Source: a virus. Taken from it: DNA of 25,419 nucleotides. The notes beneath the pieces are model-generated. The model was not told the origin of the DNA and did no database searches. It saw only the letters and a program-made list of their open reading frames with translations. A program made the translations under genes and the position numbers. The first letter of the stretch is position 1. Each line of letters opens with the position of its first letter. This document shows, one piece after another, positions 2,688-25,419 of the stretch. Location: the IMG/VR virus record IMGVR_UViG_3300044705_000051, positions 1 through 25,419 of that record; one strand, 5' to 3'.

Positions 2688-3725
2688 TTAGACGATGCGG
2701 CTTTCGGTGTTGAGGAGCTGATCGACGATGCCGAACGGAATGTTGCGGAAGTCGAGGATGGGAGCGCCCGCGTACTCACGCGAGTTGATGAGCACGTTCT
2801 TGTCGCGGATCGCCTGGATGGCCGCATACTCGGCCACGGTGCGGTTCCAGTAGAACTTGAGGCGAACCGGCGGCTCGTAGCCGTTCGGCGCGTCGGTCTT
2901 GGTGACGCCCGAAATGCGCCGGCCGGCAGTCGGCAGCCGCATGACGACCTTGGACAGAATTGCGAAAATGTCCGGAGGCGTTGAACCGGCAAGGCCCGCC
3001 GTGGTCGTGTCGATGTTCGCGACACGCACGTTGTAGCGCCAGTCGGTCACGGCAAGGCCAAGCTCCCACTCGATGAGCGAAGTGAAAGCCTCGAAGCGGT
3101 TGTTGCTCGAATCGAAACCGGGGACGATATCGCCCTTGTTCTCGAAGACGAGGCCCGCTTTCGAGCCTTTGCCGTAGATGCCAAAGGTGGTGCGCTCGCC
3201 CCAACCGACAAGCAGGATGGAGGCGTTGGACGAACCCGTGCCGCCGGCATCGAACACGTTCTGCGCCGACTGAGCGGTCGAAGACGTGACCGTGTTGTAG
3301 TACGGCATGATGCCGGTGAACTGCTCTGGATTGACCCACGAATTGCCGTAGATCAGCGTTGATGCCTGCTGCTGCGAAAAGCCCTCGAAGTGCGCGAGGT
3401 CTTCTTGCTCACGCAAGGCTTTCTCGTTTCCGCCGATCATCGCCATGCGCTTGTCCACCTGGGAGTAAGCGCGCAGCAGGGACAGGCCGAATTGCACCTG
3501 CGCCGCACGGGACGCGGTGTACGGAGTGCCCTGATAGAAGCGGATGTACGTGCCCTTGGGCAGCGCGGTACGCAGGGTCGCGAGATGGCCGGTCGGCAAA
3601 TTGCCTTCGACCATCGGGAGATCGTCAACGATCTCGTTGCACTGCGACAGCAGTTCGCTCATGTACATGAGCTTGCCGCCGGGGTCCATGCGCCGACCGA
3701 GATCGGCGAGTGAGACGTTAGCCAT
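2688..3725 (-). CDS. Major capsid protein (BPP-1 Bbp17-like)
   Basis: 345 residues. It begins MANVSLADLGRRMDP, continues with DDLPMVEGNLPTGH and LPKGTYIRFYQGTPYTASRAAQ, and has a central GIYGKGSKAGLVFENKGDIV region and a C-terminal FDFR/NIPFG-type end. These are the hallmarks of the BPP-1-like major capsid family (HK97 fold) rather than the P22 or T7 type. It lies between the scaffold-like gene upstream and the cement gene downstream, as expected. The ribosome site is weak (GAAAGA before ACACACAATG). No prohead-protease-like delta domain is visible, consistent with use of a separate scaffold. Many copies would form the icosahedral shell. Confidence 0.88.
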   Translation of the reverse strand: MANVSLADLGRRMDPGGKLMYMSELLSQCNEIVDDLPMVEGNLPTGHLATLRTALPKGTYIRFYQGTPYTASRAAQVQFGLSLLRAYSQVDKRMAMIGGNEKALREQEDLAHFEGFSQQQASTLIYGNSWVNPEQFTGIMPYYNTVTSSTAQSAQNVFDAGGTGSSNASILLVGWGERTTFGIYGKGSKAGLVFENKGDIVPGFDSSNNRFEAFTSLIEWELGLAVTDWRYNVRVANIDTTTAGLAGSTPPDIFAILSKVVMRLPTAGRRISGVTKTDAPNGYEPPVRLKFYWNRTVAEYAAIQAIRDKNVLINSREYAGAPILDFRNIPFGIVDQLLNTESRIV

Positions 3726-3760
3726 TGTGTGTCTTTCTGTTTGACGGACTCGTGCGGGCT

Positions 3761-3776
3761 CACGCCGTCAGGCGTG
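3761..3776 (-). other. Small stem-loop between scaffold and capsid genes
   Basis: A perfect 6-bp inverted repeat (CACGCC, 4-nt loop, GGCGTG) lies in the 79-nt gap upstream of the capsid gene, one of the larger gaps in an otherwise overlapping operon. No T-run follows on the minus strand. It may set the scaffold/capsid mRNA ratio through processing, but it could be incidental. Confidence 0.35.
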
Positions 3777-3804
3777 GCAAACACAAAATCCGAATGGGGT
3801 TGAG

Positions 3805-4680
3805 TTACTGCTTGTCGGCGTACATCACGTCCTGGAAGGACGCGCGGCCGGCTCGGGTTGGCGGATTGGCAGGGATGATTGGCCTGTTCTCGTATTTCTC
3901 GAACAGATTGTTGAGTACGCGGACAAGACCGACGTAGTTACCCACGCCAGTACGATCGAGCATCTGGAGAAGATCGGACACTTGCTCTTTCGAACCGCCG
4001 TACTGCTCGATCATGTATTTCGCTTGACCGAGCGACGTGAGTTCGCGATTGCCGCCTAGATCGGGGTCGGTCTTGAACTCCGATTTCAGCTTGTCGGTGA
4101 ACTCTGTCCAGACCTTTCTTTGATGCTCTTGTTGCTCTTTTACGATGCGCCGTGTCTCGGCAACGTGAAAGTCCAAAAGCTTCTGCGCCCTGTCCTGATG
4201 CGAAAGATTTGCATCGTCCAGAACGTCGGTGAACTCCTTGACCCGTTTACTGTCGAGCGTGATCCCGTCAGGGACCTTGAACGCTTCGTACTCTCTTGGC
4301 TGTGCCTTGGCAGAGCCTTCCTCTGCCGGAGCGGTTTTGGCCTCGACCGTCTTCGCTTCCTCTGTTTTCACAGGTTCGGCGGGTTCGGATTTGGCCTCGA
4401 CCGGGGCCGGCTTGGCTGCGTCGTCTTCCGACTTCGCGCCAGTCTCCGAAGCTTCCTTGGTTGGAGGCTTCGCCTCTACCGTCGAGAGTAACGACGGCGT
4501 AGCTTTATAACCTTCTGCCTCTGGAGCAGCCGCTTCCGGAGCGGGAGCTGCGGCCTCTGGAGCAGCCGCAGCCTCTACAGGCGCGGAAGCAACCGGGGAG
4601 GCGGCACCCGTGCTTCCGGCCTCGACCGGAGGCGTCGCAGCCGCGCCAGCCTCGGTTGAGGGTGTGTTCTCAGTCGTCAT
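3805..4680 (-). CDS. Putative capsid scaffolding protein
   Basis: 291 residues, start at 4680 preceded by AAGGAG. Residues 1-135 are low-complexity Ala/Glu/Pro/Thr sequence, highly acidic and probably disordered. Residues ~140-275 are charged and helical (KRVKEFTDVLDDANLSHQDR, FHVAETRRIVKEQQEHQRKV), with a short basic C-terminal tail (NPPTRAGRASFQDVMYADKQ). An acidic disordered N-terminus, a helical core and a basic tail directly upstream of the major capsid gene are typical of phage scaffolds, which bind capsid subunits through the basic tail and leave the procapsid. Its start overlaps the end of the Bbp19-like gene by 11 nt. Function is inferred from composition and position. Confidence 0.75.
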   Translation of the reverse strand: MTTENTPSTEAGAAATPPVEAGSTGAASPVASAPVEAAAAPEAAAPAPEAAAPEAEGYKATPSLLSTVEAKPPTKEASETGAKSEDDAAKPAPVEAKSEPAEPVKTEEAKTVEAKTAPAEEGSAKAQPREYEAFKVPDGITLDSKRVKEFTDVLDDANLSHQDRAQKLLDFHVAETRRIVKEQQEHQRKVWTEFTDKLKSEFKTDPDLGGNRELTSLGQAKYMIEQYGGSKEQVSDLLQMLDRTGVGNYVGLVRVLNNLFEKYENRPIIPANPPTRAGRASFQDVMYADKQ

Positions 4681-5098
4681 TCTTTCGCTCCTTCGCCTCG
4701 CGTAATTCTTTCTGCTCTTTCAGCATCTTCAAATAGAGATCGGTTGAAGCATCCATTGCAGACAGCATGATCTGCTTGCCGACGTTTTCCTCACCCAACT
4801 TGAAAAACGTCCGATTGACGCTCTCGGTATCTGCTGGCGTGCTGTAGATGTGACAGCGCTCAAGCAGACGATAGAGCGACGCCCGCCGCTGCGGCGTTGA
4901 CATGCACATCTGCCAGAAATCGCGGTCTTCCCGTTTCTGCCGGCCGCTTTCTTTCTTGGCCGCCTCGATATGACGCGGATCGCTGGCGTCGAAACCCTGT
5001 GGACGCTCTGGCTTGTCTGGAACAATCGGACGGCCAAATTCGTCAGCCTGACCGGAGAGAGAGACGAGAGGCTTGTCTTTCGTCTCCTTTTTCGCCAT
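4670..5098 (-). CDS. Bbp19-like phage head-morphogenesis-region protein
   Basis: 142 residues. The core from about residue 65 to 115 (MCMSTPQRRASLYRLLERC, then FKLGEENVGKQIMLSAMD) matches the pattern of the Bbp19-like phage domain: a short helical stretch with an ST-P-xG/R-R motif, a conserved Leu-Leu-Glu-Arg-Cys, a Phe/Glu-Gly/Glu-x-x-N-V-G motif and a helical tail. The N-terminal 60 residues are Lys/Glu/Asp-rich and flexible. In BPP-1-like phages this gene lies between portal and capsid, as here. The biochemical role of the domain is not established as far as I know. Its start overlaps the upstream stop (TGATG), so translation is probably coupled. Confidence 0.72.
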   Translation of the reverse strand: MAKKETKDKPLVSLSGQADEFGRPIVPDKPERPQGFDASDPRHIEAAKKESGRQKREDRDFWQMCMSTPQRRASLYRLLERCHIYSTPADTESVNRTFFKLGEENVGKQIMLSAMDASTDLYLKMLKEQKELREAKERKNDD

Positions 5099-5490
5099 CA
5101 GTTGAGTTTCTTCTTTTCGTGCAAAACGGTTCGGGCAACATTTTCCAATTCAGGATCGGACTCGACCCAGGCCAGAAGCGCGCGGATCATCGTGCAATCG
5201 TTGCCAAATCCAGTCCTGTCCAGCCATTCCGAAAACCCCGGCATGCCGCCGTTAAGCGCGAACATCATCGGGTCCATCAACTTGATGACCTGCTGCAATT
5301 TCTGTTCAGACCCAAAGTATCTGACCGCTTCCGGCAGCCCTTCTTTTGATGGGCCATTAGCGAGCGCATGCGTCATCAGAACAGCAGCCTTTGGACCAGC
5401 GCCTTTTGCAGCTGCCATCAGAGCTGTGCGGATGCGCCGGTCTACTTCATGGACCGGGATATGAGAGTCAGCCCTAAGCTTTGCGACCAT
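5098..5490 (-). CDS. Hypothetical protein, portal-scaffold interval
   Basis: 130 residues, mostly alpha-helical by composition, with short predicted helices such as RIRTALMAAAKG, EQKLQQVIKLMD and IRALLAWVESDPELENVARTV. No membrane segment, metal ligands or recognised catalytic motif. Both ends are coupled to neighbours: the start overlaps the upstream stop (TGATG at 5488-5492) and its own stop overlaps the next start by one base. This tight packing between portal and scaffold genes argues for a real gene with a morphogenesis role, but the family is not recognised. Confidence 0.7.
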   Translation of the reverse strand: MVAKLRADSHIPVHEVDRRIRTALMAAAKGAGPKAAVLMTHALANGPSKEGLPEAVRYFGSEQKLQQVIKLMDPMMFALNGGMPGFSEWLDRTGFGNDCTMIRALLAWVESDPELENVARTVLHEKKKLN

Positions 5491-5996
5491 CAGTGGATCA
5501 GCTTCTTGCCCGCATCATCTGGGCTAAGGATCGGCTTTCTCGACACGCTCTGGCTCAACTGCTCGACCTGATGCGCGATCTGGAGCCATTGGATTTCCGA
5601 GCGATGCACAACGGCAATCTGCCTCGCCCCGCCGGCTGCTTGTTTCAGTCCCTCCGAAAATCGCTTGCGCGCATCGAGCCATTCCATGCCCTGCCCGATT
5701 ACGTCACCGGTCTGCTTTTCATAGGTATCCGAGATGCCCGCCATATCGACGGCAACACGCCTGACCTGATCGAGCCGTGAGGCCATAGCAAGCCACATCT
5801 GCGCACGCGACGGCTCTTTCTTGGCGCAGTGCTTCGCCGCATCGGCCGCGATTTTCAGGCCCTCTACGACGCGCTCGTAGGACTCACGCTCGCGCATCAT
5901 CACTGCCTTTGGATCGGGCAGCGGGTTGCCTTCCTTATCCCTGACGATCAGGTTGTTGGCCTCATCGTCTTTTGCGATTTGTTCGGCTTCGCTCAT
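5490..5996 (-). CDS. Hypothetical helical protein immediately after portal
   Basis: 168 residues. It is hydrophilic and helical (ESYERVVEGLKIAADAAKHC, AQMWLAMASRLDQVRRVAVD, EWLDARKRFSEGLKQAAGG), with an acidic N-terminus. Its ATG overlaps the portal stop (ATGA). No signal peptide, HTH or enzymatic motif is evident. The position directly downstream of the portal suggests a head-assembly accessory or internal-protein role, but this is only positional. Confidence 0.7.
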   Translation of the reverse strand: MSEAEQIAKDDEANNLIVRDKEGNPLPDPKAVMMRERESYERVVEGLKIAADAAKHCAKKEPSRAQMWLAMASRLDQVRRVAVDMAGISDTYEKQTGDVIGQGMEWLDARKRFSEGLKQAAGGARQIAVVHRSEIQWLQIAHQVEQLSQSVSRKPILSPDDAGKKLIH

Positions 5997-12286: not shown

Positions 12287-13068
12287 GGCATCGGGACGCC
12301 AACAACAAATACGTCTCCAGTCCCAGCAGCCCCTTGCGGCACGGTTACCCTAAAATATAAAGTCGTCCAATCAGCACGAATAGTTGTATTTGTCCCCGCC
12401 AGTGCCCCGATCGCGCCGTTGGTGTCATGACCCGTAGCAACTATTGCACTCAACGCCGTAGGGCCTGCCAGTGCAGTTCCGCCCGCACTTGCCGCCGTAT
12501 AAAGCGCCGCTGATGAAGAATTTAAGGCACCTGACGCCCCATAGACTACGACAAATCTTGGCTGATACGTTGTGAAGCCAGCCGGAAGCGTTATGGTAAT
12601 CGCTGTATCGGCAACAGAATTAAAATCAATGCCTGCGGCCGAACCCAATACGTAAAAACCGCCAATTCCTATGTTGGCTACTCCAGACGATGTTTTCAGC
12701 GTCGTCCCATCAACCTGCAAGATGCCCTTTTGCGACGACGAGCCCTGCTGAACGGAGCCACACGACACCGTGCCGCTTGCCGTCACACCTGACGCAAAGG
12801 TCGTGCCTCCGCCGCAGGCATTGGTCGTGACTAAAGTAAAGTCGGTGCCATTGGATGCAGCACTCAGCGACGTGCCGTTGCCTTTAGCAATCCCGTTCGG
12901 AATAGCCGCGCCGCCGACCTTCGCAACGGTCGGATTGGGGTAGGTCCCGCTCAGATCGCCGCCGGCTGCTCCGGTCGGAGAACCGCCACCGCCGCCCGAT
13001 GGCGTAATGGTCTGCGCCTGCGCAGACGCGCACAGCAGTGCAAAGATAAATGCGAGTGTTCGGATCAT
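12283..13068 (-). CDS. Tail-fibre-like secreted protein with phage GDLSGTYPNP repeat
   Basis: 261 residues. Residues 1-18 form a Sec signal peptide with an AQA cleavage site (MIRTLAFIFALLCASAQAQ). A Gly-rich stretch then leads into GDLSGTYPNPTVAKVGG, a motif typical of phage tail-fibre shafts. The C-terminal half is a predicted beta domain (TITLPAGFTTYQPRFVVVYG ... LYFRVTVPQGAAGTGDVFV). Its ATG overlaps the upstream stop (ATGA at 13065-13068), and its stop interlocks with that of the convergent GNAT gene. A signal peptide on a fibre-like protein is odd and is shared by three other proteins here. Confidence 0.72.
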   Translation of the reverse strand: MIRTLAFIFALLCASAQAQTITPSGGGGGSPTGAAGGDLSGTYPNPTVAKVGGAAIPNGIAKGNGTSLSAASNGTDFTLVTTNACGGGTTFASGVTASGTVSCGSVQQGSSSQKGILQVDGTTLKTSSGVANIGIGGFYVLGSAAGIDFNSVADTAITITLPAGFTTYQPRFVVVYGASGALNSSSAALYTAASAGGTALAGPTALSAIVATGHDTNGAIGALAGTNTTIRADWTTLYFRVTVPQGAAGTGDVFVVGVPMP

Positions 13069-16538: not shown

Positions 16539-17081
16539 CTACGCCACCTTCTCCAAATAACATGGCTCAATCGTGCTTGTGACCTGCCGACCGAGAAAAT
16601 TCAAGAGAATTTCAACCCTGTGCTTGGCATTCGCGTTTTTCACCTTGGCAAAGAACGTATCCATAGGGCTGCCGTCTTTCTTGATCTGTACGGTGTCGCC
16701 TATGCCGAATGACAGGTTTTTCACGGTGTAATCGAATGCCCCGGCCGCTTGCGCTCTTTGTAGAGCTTCGACCTCTCCTCTCAACCTGACCGGAATCCGG
16801 TTGTTGCTCAACAGATCAATGACGCCCGGTGTCGGCAGTATCAGTTCTTGCCAATCCTCCCGCTCAACATCGAAGGCGACGAATACGTAGCCGGGAAACA
16901 AGGCCTGTTCGATGATCACGCGCCGCTTCGCCACAACCTTCCTGCGACGCATTTTCGGAACATAGGCGTCGAAGCCGACCCGGATCATCTCTCGCTCAAT
17001 CTCGAACTCATTCTTGGCAAAGCAGGATATTACATACCACGCCCGACCAAGAGGAAAGCTCATCGGAATGTCATGCTGCAT
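16539..17081 (-). CDS. NusG/RfaH-family transcription elongation paralogue
   Basis: 180 residues, the length of a full NusG. The NGN domain spans ~14-100: opening WYVISCFAKNEFEIE, QALFPGYVFVAFD near 59 (the RNA-polymerase-binding PGYV signature), and PTPGVIDLL near 83. A KOW domain lies ~126-180: FGIGDTVQIKKDG, FFAKVKNANAKHRVEILLNF, LGRQV. Such proteins bind the polymerase clamp and alter pausing or termination. The ATG at 17081 has GGGG upstream and overlaps the LexA-like stop by 11 nt. It is the last replication-side gene but one before an intrinsic terminator and the late operon, so a late antitermination role is likely by position. Host NusG is normally encoded in the secE-rpl cluster, not here. 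Confidence 0.88.
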   Translation of the reverse strand: MQHDIPMSFPLGRAWYVISCFAKNEFEIEREMIRVGFDAYVPKMRRRKVVAKRRVIIEQALFPGYVFVAFDVEREDWQELILPTPGVIDLLSNNRIPVRLRGEVEALQRAQAAGAFDYTVKNLSFGIGDTVQIKKDGSPMDTFFAKVKNANAKHRVEILLNFLGRQVTSTIEPCYLEKVA

Positions 17082-24268: not shown

Positions 24269-24297
24269 ATTATGCGCACACGCATTCAGAACGTCAA
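24269..24297 (-). promoter_or_regulatory. Leftward early promoter (cro and lytic genes)
   Basis: On the minus strand: TTGACG (24297-24292), a 17-bp spacer, CATAAT (24274-24269). These are 5/6 matches to both sigma70 boxes. Operator 24271-24286 covers the -10 end and spacer, so repressor binding would exclude polymerase. Confidence 0.8.
24271..24286. promoter_or_regulatory. Repressor operator, left group site 1
   Basis: TATGCGCACACGCATT: half sites TATGCG and CGCATT around a 4-bp centre. It overlaps the leftward promoter. Confidence 0.78.
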
Positions 24298-24303
24298 GGG
24301 GCT

Positions 24304-24319
24304 TATGCACACGCGCATT
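24304..24319. promoter_or_regulatory. Repressor operator, left group site 2
   Basis: TATGCACACGCGCATT, same 6-4-6 design. Its centre is 33 bp from site 1, just upstream of the -35 box of the leftward promoter. Confidence 0.75.
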
Positions 24320-24330
24320 TGCAGCCCGCC

Positions 24331-24346
24331 TATGTAGAACCGCATA
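24331..24346. promoter_or_regulatory. Repressor operator, left group site 3
   Basis: TATGTAGAACCGCATA, with flanking bases extending the symmetry (CCTATG...CATAGG). Its centre is 27 bp from site 2 and 8 bp ahead of the CI-like start codon, so filling it could autoregulate the repressor. Confidence 0.68.
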
Positions 24347-24354
24347 GGAAAGGC

Positions 24355-24939
24355 ATGCAGCTTCTTGCGATTCTCCGTGAGATTCAGCGGGTGAAGGGCT
24401 GGAACCAAAGCCAGCTAGGTAACGCACTACGGGTTGACCAATCCACTATTTCCCGGTGGTATGGTAAGGGTCAGCGGCCTGACTTAGATCAAAGGGACCG
24501 CATTCTTGCGCTGGCACAGTCACTAGGAGTTGTAGATAATTCTACACAATCCTCTGACTTTTCGGTGCCGATCGTGGGGTATGTGGGAGCCGGTGGTCAC
24601 ATCCTCTTTGGAGAGGGTCAAGGACCGTTCGGAGAGGCGAGAATGCCTCCAGAGGGCGCTAAGGCGACCACTGTAGCGGTCCTAGTTCGTGGGGACAGCA
24701 TGTCCGGCCAGCTTGAGGACGGCTGGACAGTCTATTACGAAACCCGGAAAGAACCTCCGACCCCCGACCTTTACGGGAAGTTGTGCGTGATAGGCCTCCC
24801 AGACGGAGAGGTCTACATCAAGAAGCTCCTGCCAGGCAGCCAGCCGGGCACCTTCCACCTCCTGTCCGCGAATGCCGGGCCGTTGCTCGATCAAAAAATC
24901 CTCTGGGCCGCCCGCGTGACTTGGATCGCCCCCGTCTGA
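24355..24939 (+). CDS. CI-like S24-family prophage repressor
   Basis: 194 residues from ATG at 24355, with AGGAAAGG just upstream; an upstream in-frame ATG at 24235 would run through the operators and overlap cro. HTH at ~17-40 (NQSQLGNALRVDQSTISRWY). The S24 domain has Ser115 in VRGDSMSGQLEDGW and Lys156 (or Lys157) in GEVYIKKLL; a likely Ala79-Gly80 cleavage site lies in GYVGAGG. RecA-stimulated self-cleavage would free the operators, so the phage is probably SOS-inducible. It reads divergently from cro, between two groups of three operators. The -10/-35 of its own promoter is not clear. Confidence 0.9.
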   Translation: MQLLAILREIQRVKGWNQSQLGNALRVDQSTISRWYGKGQRPDLDQRDRILALAQSLGVVDNSTQSSDFSVPIVGYVGAGGHILFGEGQGPFGEARMPPEGAKATTVAVLVRGDSMSGQLEDGWTVYYETRKEPPTPDLYGKLCVIGLPDGEVYIKKLLPGSQPGTFHLLSANAGPLLDQKILWAARVTWIAPV

Positions 24940-24964
24940 TCACGGTTTCGTGATGTGGCGGTTT
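24939..24964 (+). terminator. Weak hairpin terminator after the repressor gene
   Basis: ATCACG-GTTT-CGTGAT is a perfect 6-bp stem starting at the stop codon, followed by GTGGCGGTTTT. The T-run is short and spaced from the stem, so termination would be partial. Confidence 0.35.
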
Positions 24965-24978
24965 TGCACCGTCGCATA
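24963..24978. promoter_or_regulatory. Degenerate repressor operator, right group site 1
   Basis: TTTGCACCGTCGCATA: right half is CGCATA, left half TTTGCA matches TATGCG at 4 of 6. Spacing to the next site (31 bp between centres) mirrors the left group. Confidence 0.5.
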
Positions 24979-24993
24979 ATTTTTCTGGAAATT

Positions 24994-25009
24994 TATGCGT
25001 CTGCGCATT
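24994..25009. promoter_or_regulatory. Repressor operator, right group site 2
   Basis: TATGCGTCTGCGCATT, the same 6-4-6 pattern. It ends on the -35 box of the rightward promoter. Confidence 0.75.
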
Positions 25010-25035
25010 GACGAGCCTATGCGTGTGTGCATAAT
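25008..25035 (+). promoter_or_regulatory. Rightward early promoter
   Basis: TTGACG (25008-25013), a 16-bp spacer, CATAAT (25030-25035): the same boxes as the leftward promoter. Operator 25018-25033 fills the spacer and part of the -10 box. It should drive the gene at 25129. Confidence 0.78.
25018..25033. promoter_or_regulatory. Repressor operator, right group site 3
   Basis: TATGCGTGTGTGCATA: half sites TATGCG and TGCATA. It lies between the -35 and -10 boxes. Centres of sites 2 and 3 are 24 bp apart. Confidence 0.78.
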
Positions 25036-25128: not shown

Positions 25129-25419
25129 ATGCGGACCATCGAGCAAATCGACCAAGCGATTGACGCGAACCGCAACGCGATGAAGGCGCGGCTTCACTTC
25201 GATCCGAGCATGTCGAGCTTTAGCTGGCAGACCGCATGGGACCGCTGCCCTGATTTATGGAAGCGAGACCGCGAACTTCATTCCGAACGCTTTGAGGCAA
25301 TGGAAGTTCGCGACAGACAAGCGGAATTGGAACGTCGCCGCCAAGAACGCGCAGCGCGTTCCGCTGCAAAGAAATCAGCAAAATCACTCCAGCGCTGTCC
25401 CACTTGCGGCGCTCTGGCT
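25129..25419 (+). CDS. Rightward early protein, partial
   Basis: An open frame of 97 codons from ATG at 25129 runs off the window. GGGGAG stands six bases upstream, and the strong rightward promoter lies ~95 nt ahead. The visible part is helical and charged (RTIEQIDQAIDANRNAM, SFSWQTAWDRCPDLWKRD), with a basic coiled region (ELERRRQERAARSAAKKSAK), then CPTCG, the first half of a probable zinc ribbon. It is the first gene of the rightward operon, in the place of the lambda PL genes. Family not recognised; the missing C-terminus may carry the second Cys pair. Confidence 0.7.
   Translation, partial: MRTIEQIDQAIDANRNAMKARLHFDPSMSSFSWQTAWDRCPDLWKRDRELHSERFEAMEVRDRQAELERRRQERAARSAAKKSAKSLQRCPTCGALA

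Follow-up and report, generated by a model that had tools for sequence, protein, structure and literature searches.

The virus record IMGVR_UViG_3300044705_000051 of IMG/VR, analysed here over its full length of 25,419 nucleotides (the window), carries divergent genes for a CI-like and a Cro-like repressor, with short palindromes on both sides of cI. It is very likely, with a probability of about 0.87, that this is the immunity region, controlling lysis and lysogeny, of an uncultured temperate podovirus, and that it works like the CI/Cro switch of phage lambda. Several features of the lambda type are present: a CI with a helix-turn-helix (HTH) domain and an S24 peptidase domain, a divergent Cro-like gene heading the lytic operon, and three operators between cI and cro that overlap the promoters PR and PRM. 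Sites, promoter boxes, gene order, conservation and the covariation of the operators with the DNA-binding domain of CI can be read from the sequence. The left site group corresponds to OR of lambda and the right group to OL, because the Cro-like gene heads the leftward series that contains the helicase, terminase, portal and head genes.

A preliminary description of the window had proposed six 16-bp sites of the form TATGCG-N4-CGCATA, in two groups of three. All six matches are found (Table 1), and the centre spacings of 33 and 27 bp on the left and 31 and 24 bp on the right are correct. When up to three mismatches are tolerated, the motif is barely enriched in the whole window (19 matches, 12.9 expected), which could speak for chance palindromes in GC-rich DNA. 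With up to two mismatches, in contrast, the window has 8 matches and shuffled sequences a mean of 1.3; the densest clusters in 300 dinucleotide shuffles held 2 sites per 120 bp and 2 per 900 bp, where the window holds 3 and 6. Many equally good matches elsewhere would have spoken against the proposal, but outside the six only those at 13011 and 22403 on the whole record reach two mismatches or fewer, and both are isolated and lie within coding sequence. The shuffle test and the conservation across seven phages described below make chance an extremely improbable explanation. It is rejected for five of the six sites (for 24331 through its conserved position) and is possible only for the one at 24963.

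The sites are not of equal quality. A matrix built from relatives only gives O1', O1, O2 and O2' the four best scores in the window (20.5-20.9 bits; next place 12.6 bits), while 24331 comes 10th and 24963 13th; in a leave-one-out ranking inside the window these two are 23rd and 10th. We accept 24331 as a site, O3, because its position is conserved despite its weak sequence. No such rescue is available for 24963, and a three-site group on the right is not supported as it had been described, as relatives keep two sites there and 24963 is weak. Since the latter is not conserved, the safe count is three sites in OR and two in OL, with one more possible. A conserved third OL site was considered and rejected, the relatives showing only GCATA half-sites at that place, some of them in direct repeat.

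Table 1. Operators, promoters and repressor genes of the proposed immunity region (positions in the window)
Feature	Positions	Strand	Sequence	Remarks
O1 (OR)	24271..24286		TATGCGCACACGCATT	1 mismatch; over -10 of leftward cro promoter PR; rank 2 with relatives-only matrix
O2 (OR)	24304..24319		TATGCACACGCGCATT	2 mismatches; adjoins -35 of proposed PRM; rank 3 with relatives-only matrix
O3 (OR)	24331..24346		TATGTAGAACCGCATA	2 mismatches; overlaps proposed PRM -10 beside cI start
Possible third right-hand site, doubtful	24963..24978		TTTGCACCGTCGCATA	2 mismatches; position not conserved
O2' (OL)	24994..25009		TATGCGTCTGCGCATT	1 mismatch; final TT is start of PL -35; rank 4 with relatives-only matrix
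O1' (OL)	25018..25033		TATGCGTGTGTGCATA	1 mismatch; over PL -10; rank 1 with relatives-only matrix
PR	24269..24297	-		TTGACG (24297-24292), 17 bp, CATAAT (24274-24269); reads to cro
PL	25008..25035	+		TTGACG (25008-25013), 16 bp, CATAAT (25030-25035); reads rightwards out of the record
PRM (predicted)	24319..24348	+		TTGCAG, 18 bp, CATAGG; 6 nt upstream of cI ATG
CI-like repressor, 194 aa	24355..24939	+		HTH and Peptidase_S24 (PF00717 above cut-off)
Cro-like HTH protein, 79 aa	24021..24260	-		HTH_3 (PF01381); first gene of leftward operon

The relatives are six other uncultured phages found with CI (L005/L014, L006/L015, L007/L017, L008/L018, L009/L019 and L016), whose CI proteins are 45-62% identical in the five that were aligned and 52% in L016. 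Conservation in related phages, named as a check in the preliminary description, is indeed found. A matrix trained on the six sites of the window gave, at a score cut-off of at least 10, 29 matches in the 1,440 positions flanking cI against 1 in 56,506 positions elsewhere, some matches overlapping so that distinct sites are slightly fewer, and the motif is present in both flanks. At 12 control loci with a more distant or different CI, no matches occurred beside cI, and two isolated ones lay far away. The consensus of 35 sites is nATnC...GnATn.

The geometry is kept as well. Measured from the cI ATG, the centre of O3 lies at -16.5 in five phages (the window, L014, L016, L017 and L018) and at -18.5 and -20.5 in two, that of O2 at -41.5 to -46.5 in six of the seven, and that of O1 at -75.5 to -79.5 in six and at -86.5 in L016; O1 keeps its position in the relatives and is weak in L019. 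Spacings of 32-34 bp between O1 and O2 and of 25-27 bp between O2 and O3 hold in six of the seven phages. On the other side O2' and O1' are 24-26 bp apart in all seven, with O2' running into TTGAC and O1' lying over the -10 box. From O2 to O2' the distance is 690 bp in the window and 687-706 bp in five relatives.

Both site groups overlap promoters with the identical boxes TTGACG and CATAAT, as had been noticed before, and these boxes belong to the conserved frame: all seven phages have GTCAA in the interval from O1 to O2, the TTGAC of PL is equally constant, and O2' adjoins [CT]ATTGAC in each of them. A CAT[AT]NN element precedes the cI ATG by 6-10 nt throughout (exactly 6 nt in five phages), and in most of the seven a TTGNNN-like box is found 17-18 bp above it, touching O2. 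Functionally, PRM would resemble its lambda counterpart, a poor promoter whose repressor site lies at about -42, and the cI mRNA is predicted to be near-leaderless.

The CI-like and Cro-like genes are divergent in the window and, according to an open reading frame search, in L015-L019. Self-cleavage of CI is plausible from S115, K156 and a putative cleavage site at A79-G80. An AlphaFold model of moderate confidence (predicted local distance difference test, pLDDT, 67 overall, with a low-confidence linker, so that matches were used at domain level only) has four N-terminal helices, Q-S-T-I-S-R-W being in the one at 29-37, and in fold it is best matched by the lambda repressor structures 3bdn, 1kca and 1f39. 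A sequence-profile search of solved structures returned HTH-domain matches only, mostly HipB. CI and Cro had been said to share the recognition helix Q-x-T-x-SRW; in the phages examined, Q-x-[TS]-x-SRW is common to both.

Further support comes from phages with other repressors. Mesorhizobium phage vB_MseS-P1 (PP232116; L028) and a Chelatococcus composti prophage (L011/L013) have a different CI HTH and an operator resembling TTCCCCA-N3-TGGGGAA. This word occurs upstream of cI and again in an OL pair spaced 24-25 bp, the first member of which adjoins TTGAC; the cI start and OL are about 1 kb apart in L011. The operator word covaries with the DNA-binding domain of CI in a nearly constant frame. 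We tentatively suggest, at somewhat less than even odds, that in this lineage of mostly alphaproteobacterial phages the GCATA half-site doubles as the -10 box of PR, PL and PRM, that cI and cro mRNAs start almost at the AUG, and that the DNA-binding domains of CI and Cro are swapped as a cassette together with the operators while the frame remains fixed.

When Cro alone was used as the query, L039, L040 and L042 were found, and each of them has sites upstream of its cro gene. No S24 gene was detected on the records of L039, which is a fragment, and L040. In L040 the cro-side and right-operon sites stand within about 100 bp, as if cI had been deleted, and an integrase-family gene is present. 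In L042 a single gene separates cI from OL, and the OL pair is about 2.7 kb away from OR. The intervening gene (L045 (G009:C1) 3176-4894) encodes a 572-aa Mrr-type (type IV) restriction enzyme and takes the place of rexAB in lambda; it is possibly a prophage exclusion gene read from the cI promoter. Beside the more distant Cro-like genes of L041 and L043 no sites were found. Their products have QATVSRW, and Q-x-T-x-SRW was therefore rejected as sole proof of common specificity.

Similar operator words also occur elsewhere. On the reverse strand of L031, a PL-like promoter and the neighbourhood of a divergent cro-like gene carry TATGCG-N4-CGCATT, at 5863, 5901, 7053 and 7078. The repressor matched no Pfam family, and convergence or operator exchange is proposed for the near-identical word. 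L033 has, at 657-696, a PL-like promoter with spacer-3 palindromes (TATGCG-TTA-CGCATT), downstream of an S24-like repressor gene and a small lipoprotein-like gene. A promoter-operator pattern also picked out L030 and L034, which were rejected as unrelated, having a different palindrome and structural genes.

The switch proposed from these elements depends on predicted binding by CI and Cro, a predicted order of affinities, activation of PRM and SOS induction. CI dimers on O1 and O2 would turn off PR and with it the leftward operon of cro, replication and late genes, while CI on O2' and O1' would turn off PL and the rightward early operon. From O2, centred at about -42 from the proposed PRM start and adjoining its poor -35 box, CI would raise its own synthesis. 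O3, over the -10 box of PRM, would serve to turn cI off when occupied by abundant CI or by Cro, which probably competes for the same sites as CI. After DNA damage, CI would be inactivated through S24 self-cleavage.

Some observations weigh against such a lambda-like switch. The sequence of O3 in the window is weak, and no O2 could be recognised in L016; three OR sites are therefore not kept in every phage. The record ends at 25419 within the right operon, short of the rest of the window's PL operon and of any integrase in it. Cleavage is not universal, since CI of L019 is without the catalytic Ser and Lys. That protein (IMGVR_UViG_3300046782_000105, 5001-5597) has GDGM at the Ser and IRR at the Lys position and has lost the Ala-Gly cleavage site as well, yet the operators are kept; it may possibly represent a form of the same switch that is not SOS-inducible. 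The cleavage sites of CI in L017 and L018 are altered too.

Other readings were considered as well. The operators could belong to CI, with OR and OL acting independently, without looping or cooperativity, as for the 933W repressor, which is apparently not cooperative (PMC3317979). We give this only slightly less than an even chance: the distance between the clusters is not fixed, ranging from about 690 bp to about 1 kb in L011 and about 2.7 kb in L042, but paired clusters have been retained to either side of cI, looping in lambda itself spans about 2.3 kb, and the C-terminal domain of CI in the moderate-confidence model resembles that of the octamer-forming lambda CI. The geometry would permit looping between OR and OL over about 690 bp, which we regard as possible at rather less than even odds. 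Helical phasing was rejected as evidence for it; seven phages supply too few distances (679-706 bp), and these vary mainly by codons, which makes them uninformative. A division like that of the telomere phages phiKO2 and PY54, with CI binding all sites and Cro only one or few, for example O3, is rather unlikely. In its favour, O3 diverges more than the other OR sites; against it, CI and Cro have the Q-x-[TS]-x-SRW helix in common in the phages examined, and good sites are kept by phages that bear Cro but no detected CI. A further thought is that the sites serve another regulator, such as the phage GcrA homologue, a LexA-like DNA-binding protein or a host XRE factor, and flank cI by accident. 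The phage does encode GcrA-like and LexA-DNA-binding-like proteins, but the operator word tracks the CI/Cro helix, being changed in L028 and L011 along with the CI HTH, and L028, with its different word, encodes GcrA too; this explanation is very improbable.

The leftward series after cro includes a GcrA homologue, a DnaB-like helicase, a NusG-like protein, a terminase, an epsilon15-like portal and a major head protein. The podovirus-like character suggested earlier is borne out by the portal, which shares 37% identity with the portals of epsilon15 and SPN1S, and the GcrA homologue and the alphaproteobacterial hosts of more distant relatives point indirectly to an alphaproteobacterial host. 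An integrase gene lies to the right of cI in L015, L016 and L028; the PL operons of L015 and L016 lead to it, that of L016 holding ERF and YqaJ genes. On the minus strand the window also encodes a SET-domain protein (PF00856; 21484-21858), unusual for a podovirus, a Formyltransferase-domain protein (PF00551; 17605-18279) in the early region, and a LexA DNA-binding domain (PF01726; 17071-17418) without a peptidase domain, directly upstream of the NusG-like gene (16539-17081). The right operon of L015 has a similar stand-alone LexA DNA-binding domain.

In common with lambda, cI and cro are divergent with OR between them, cI reads to OL and PL reads away from cI; an OR2-like site at about -42 of PRM, a proposed near-leaderless cI start and an S24 CI with a modelled lambda-repressor-like fold can be added. 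Lambda has 17-bp operators (PMC4997575), three OL sites and about 2.3 kb between OR and OL, whereas 16-bp sites of the form ATGCG-N4-YGYAT, two sure OL sites and 0.7 kb are found here. Unlike in lambda, O1 sits on the -10 box of PR. Three OR and two OL operators of 16 bp, five in all, are likewise present in the immB regions of the telomere phages N15 and phiKO2. There, however, the motif is TA-N10-TA, OL is located upstream of repA, and the CB repressor is without the self-cleavage residues (PMC4997575), which CI here keeps. Identity with that type was rejected, given the consensus nATnC...GnATn and the Ser and Lys of CI. Together, 933W (PMC3317979) and phiKO2 (PMC4997575) show that a layout like that of lambda can be functional when cooperativity is absent or when Cro has another specificity. 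In Rhizobium phage 16-3, likewise an alphaproteobacterial phage, the C repressor acts on PL and PR (PMC3694467). Phage vB_MseS-P1 is similar in its homologous CI (38%), its divergent small repressor gene, its OL pair 24 bp apart adjoining TTGAC and the integrase at the far end of its right operon; it differs in its CI HTH and its operator, TTCCCCA-N3-TGGGGAA. Its repressor is annotated only as LexA repressor and its operators are unannotated. The operators of phage 16-3 are reportedly of the ACAA/TTGT type.

The layout and the parts are already known from lambda-type switches; what is new is the operator word ATGCG-N4-CGCAT, the placing of O1 over the -10 box of PR and the natural series of variants. 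The region provides a compact and fully readable switch of the lambda type in relatives of epsilon15-like podoviruses, outside the classical coliphages. The variants, with OR-OL distances of 0.7, 1.0 and 2.7 kb, swapped repressor domains, Cro without a detected CI and a repressor devoid of cleavage residues, may be used to probe which parts of the lambda design are essential, and the new operator/repressor specificity could be orthogonal to known ones.
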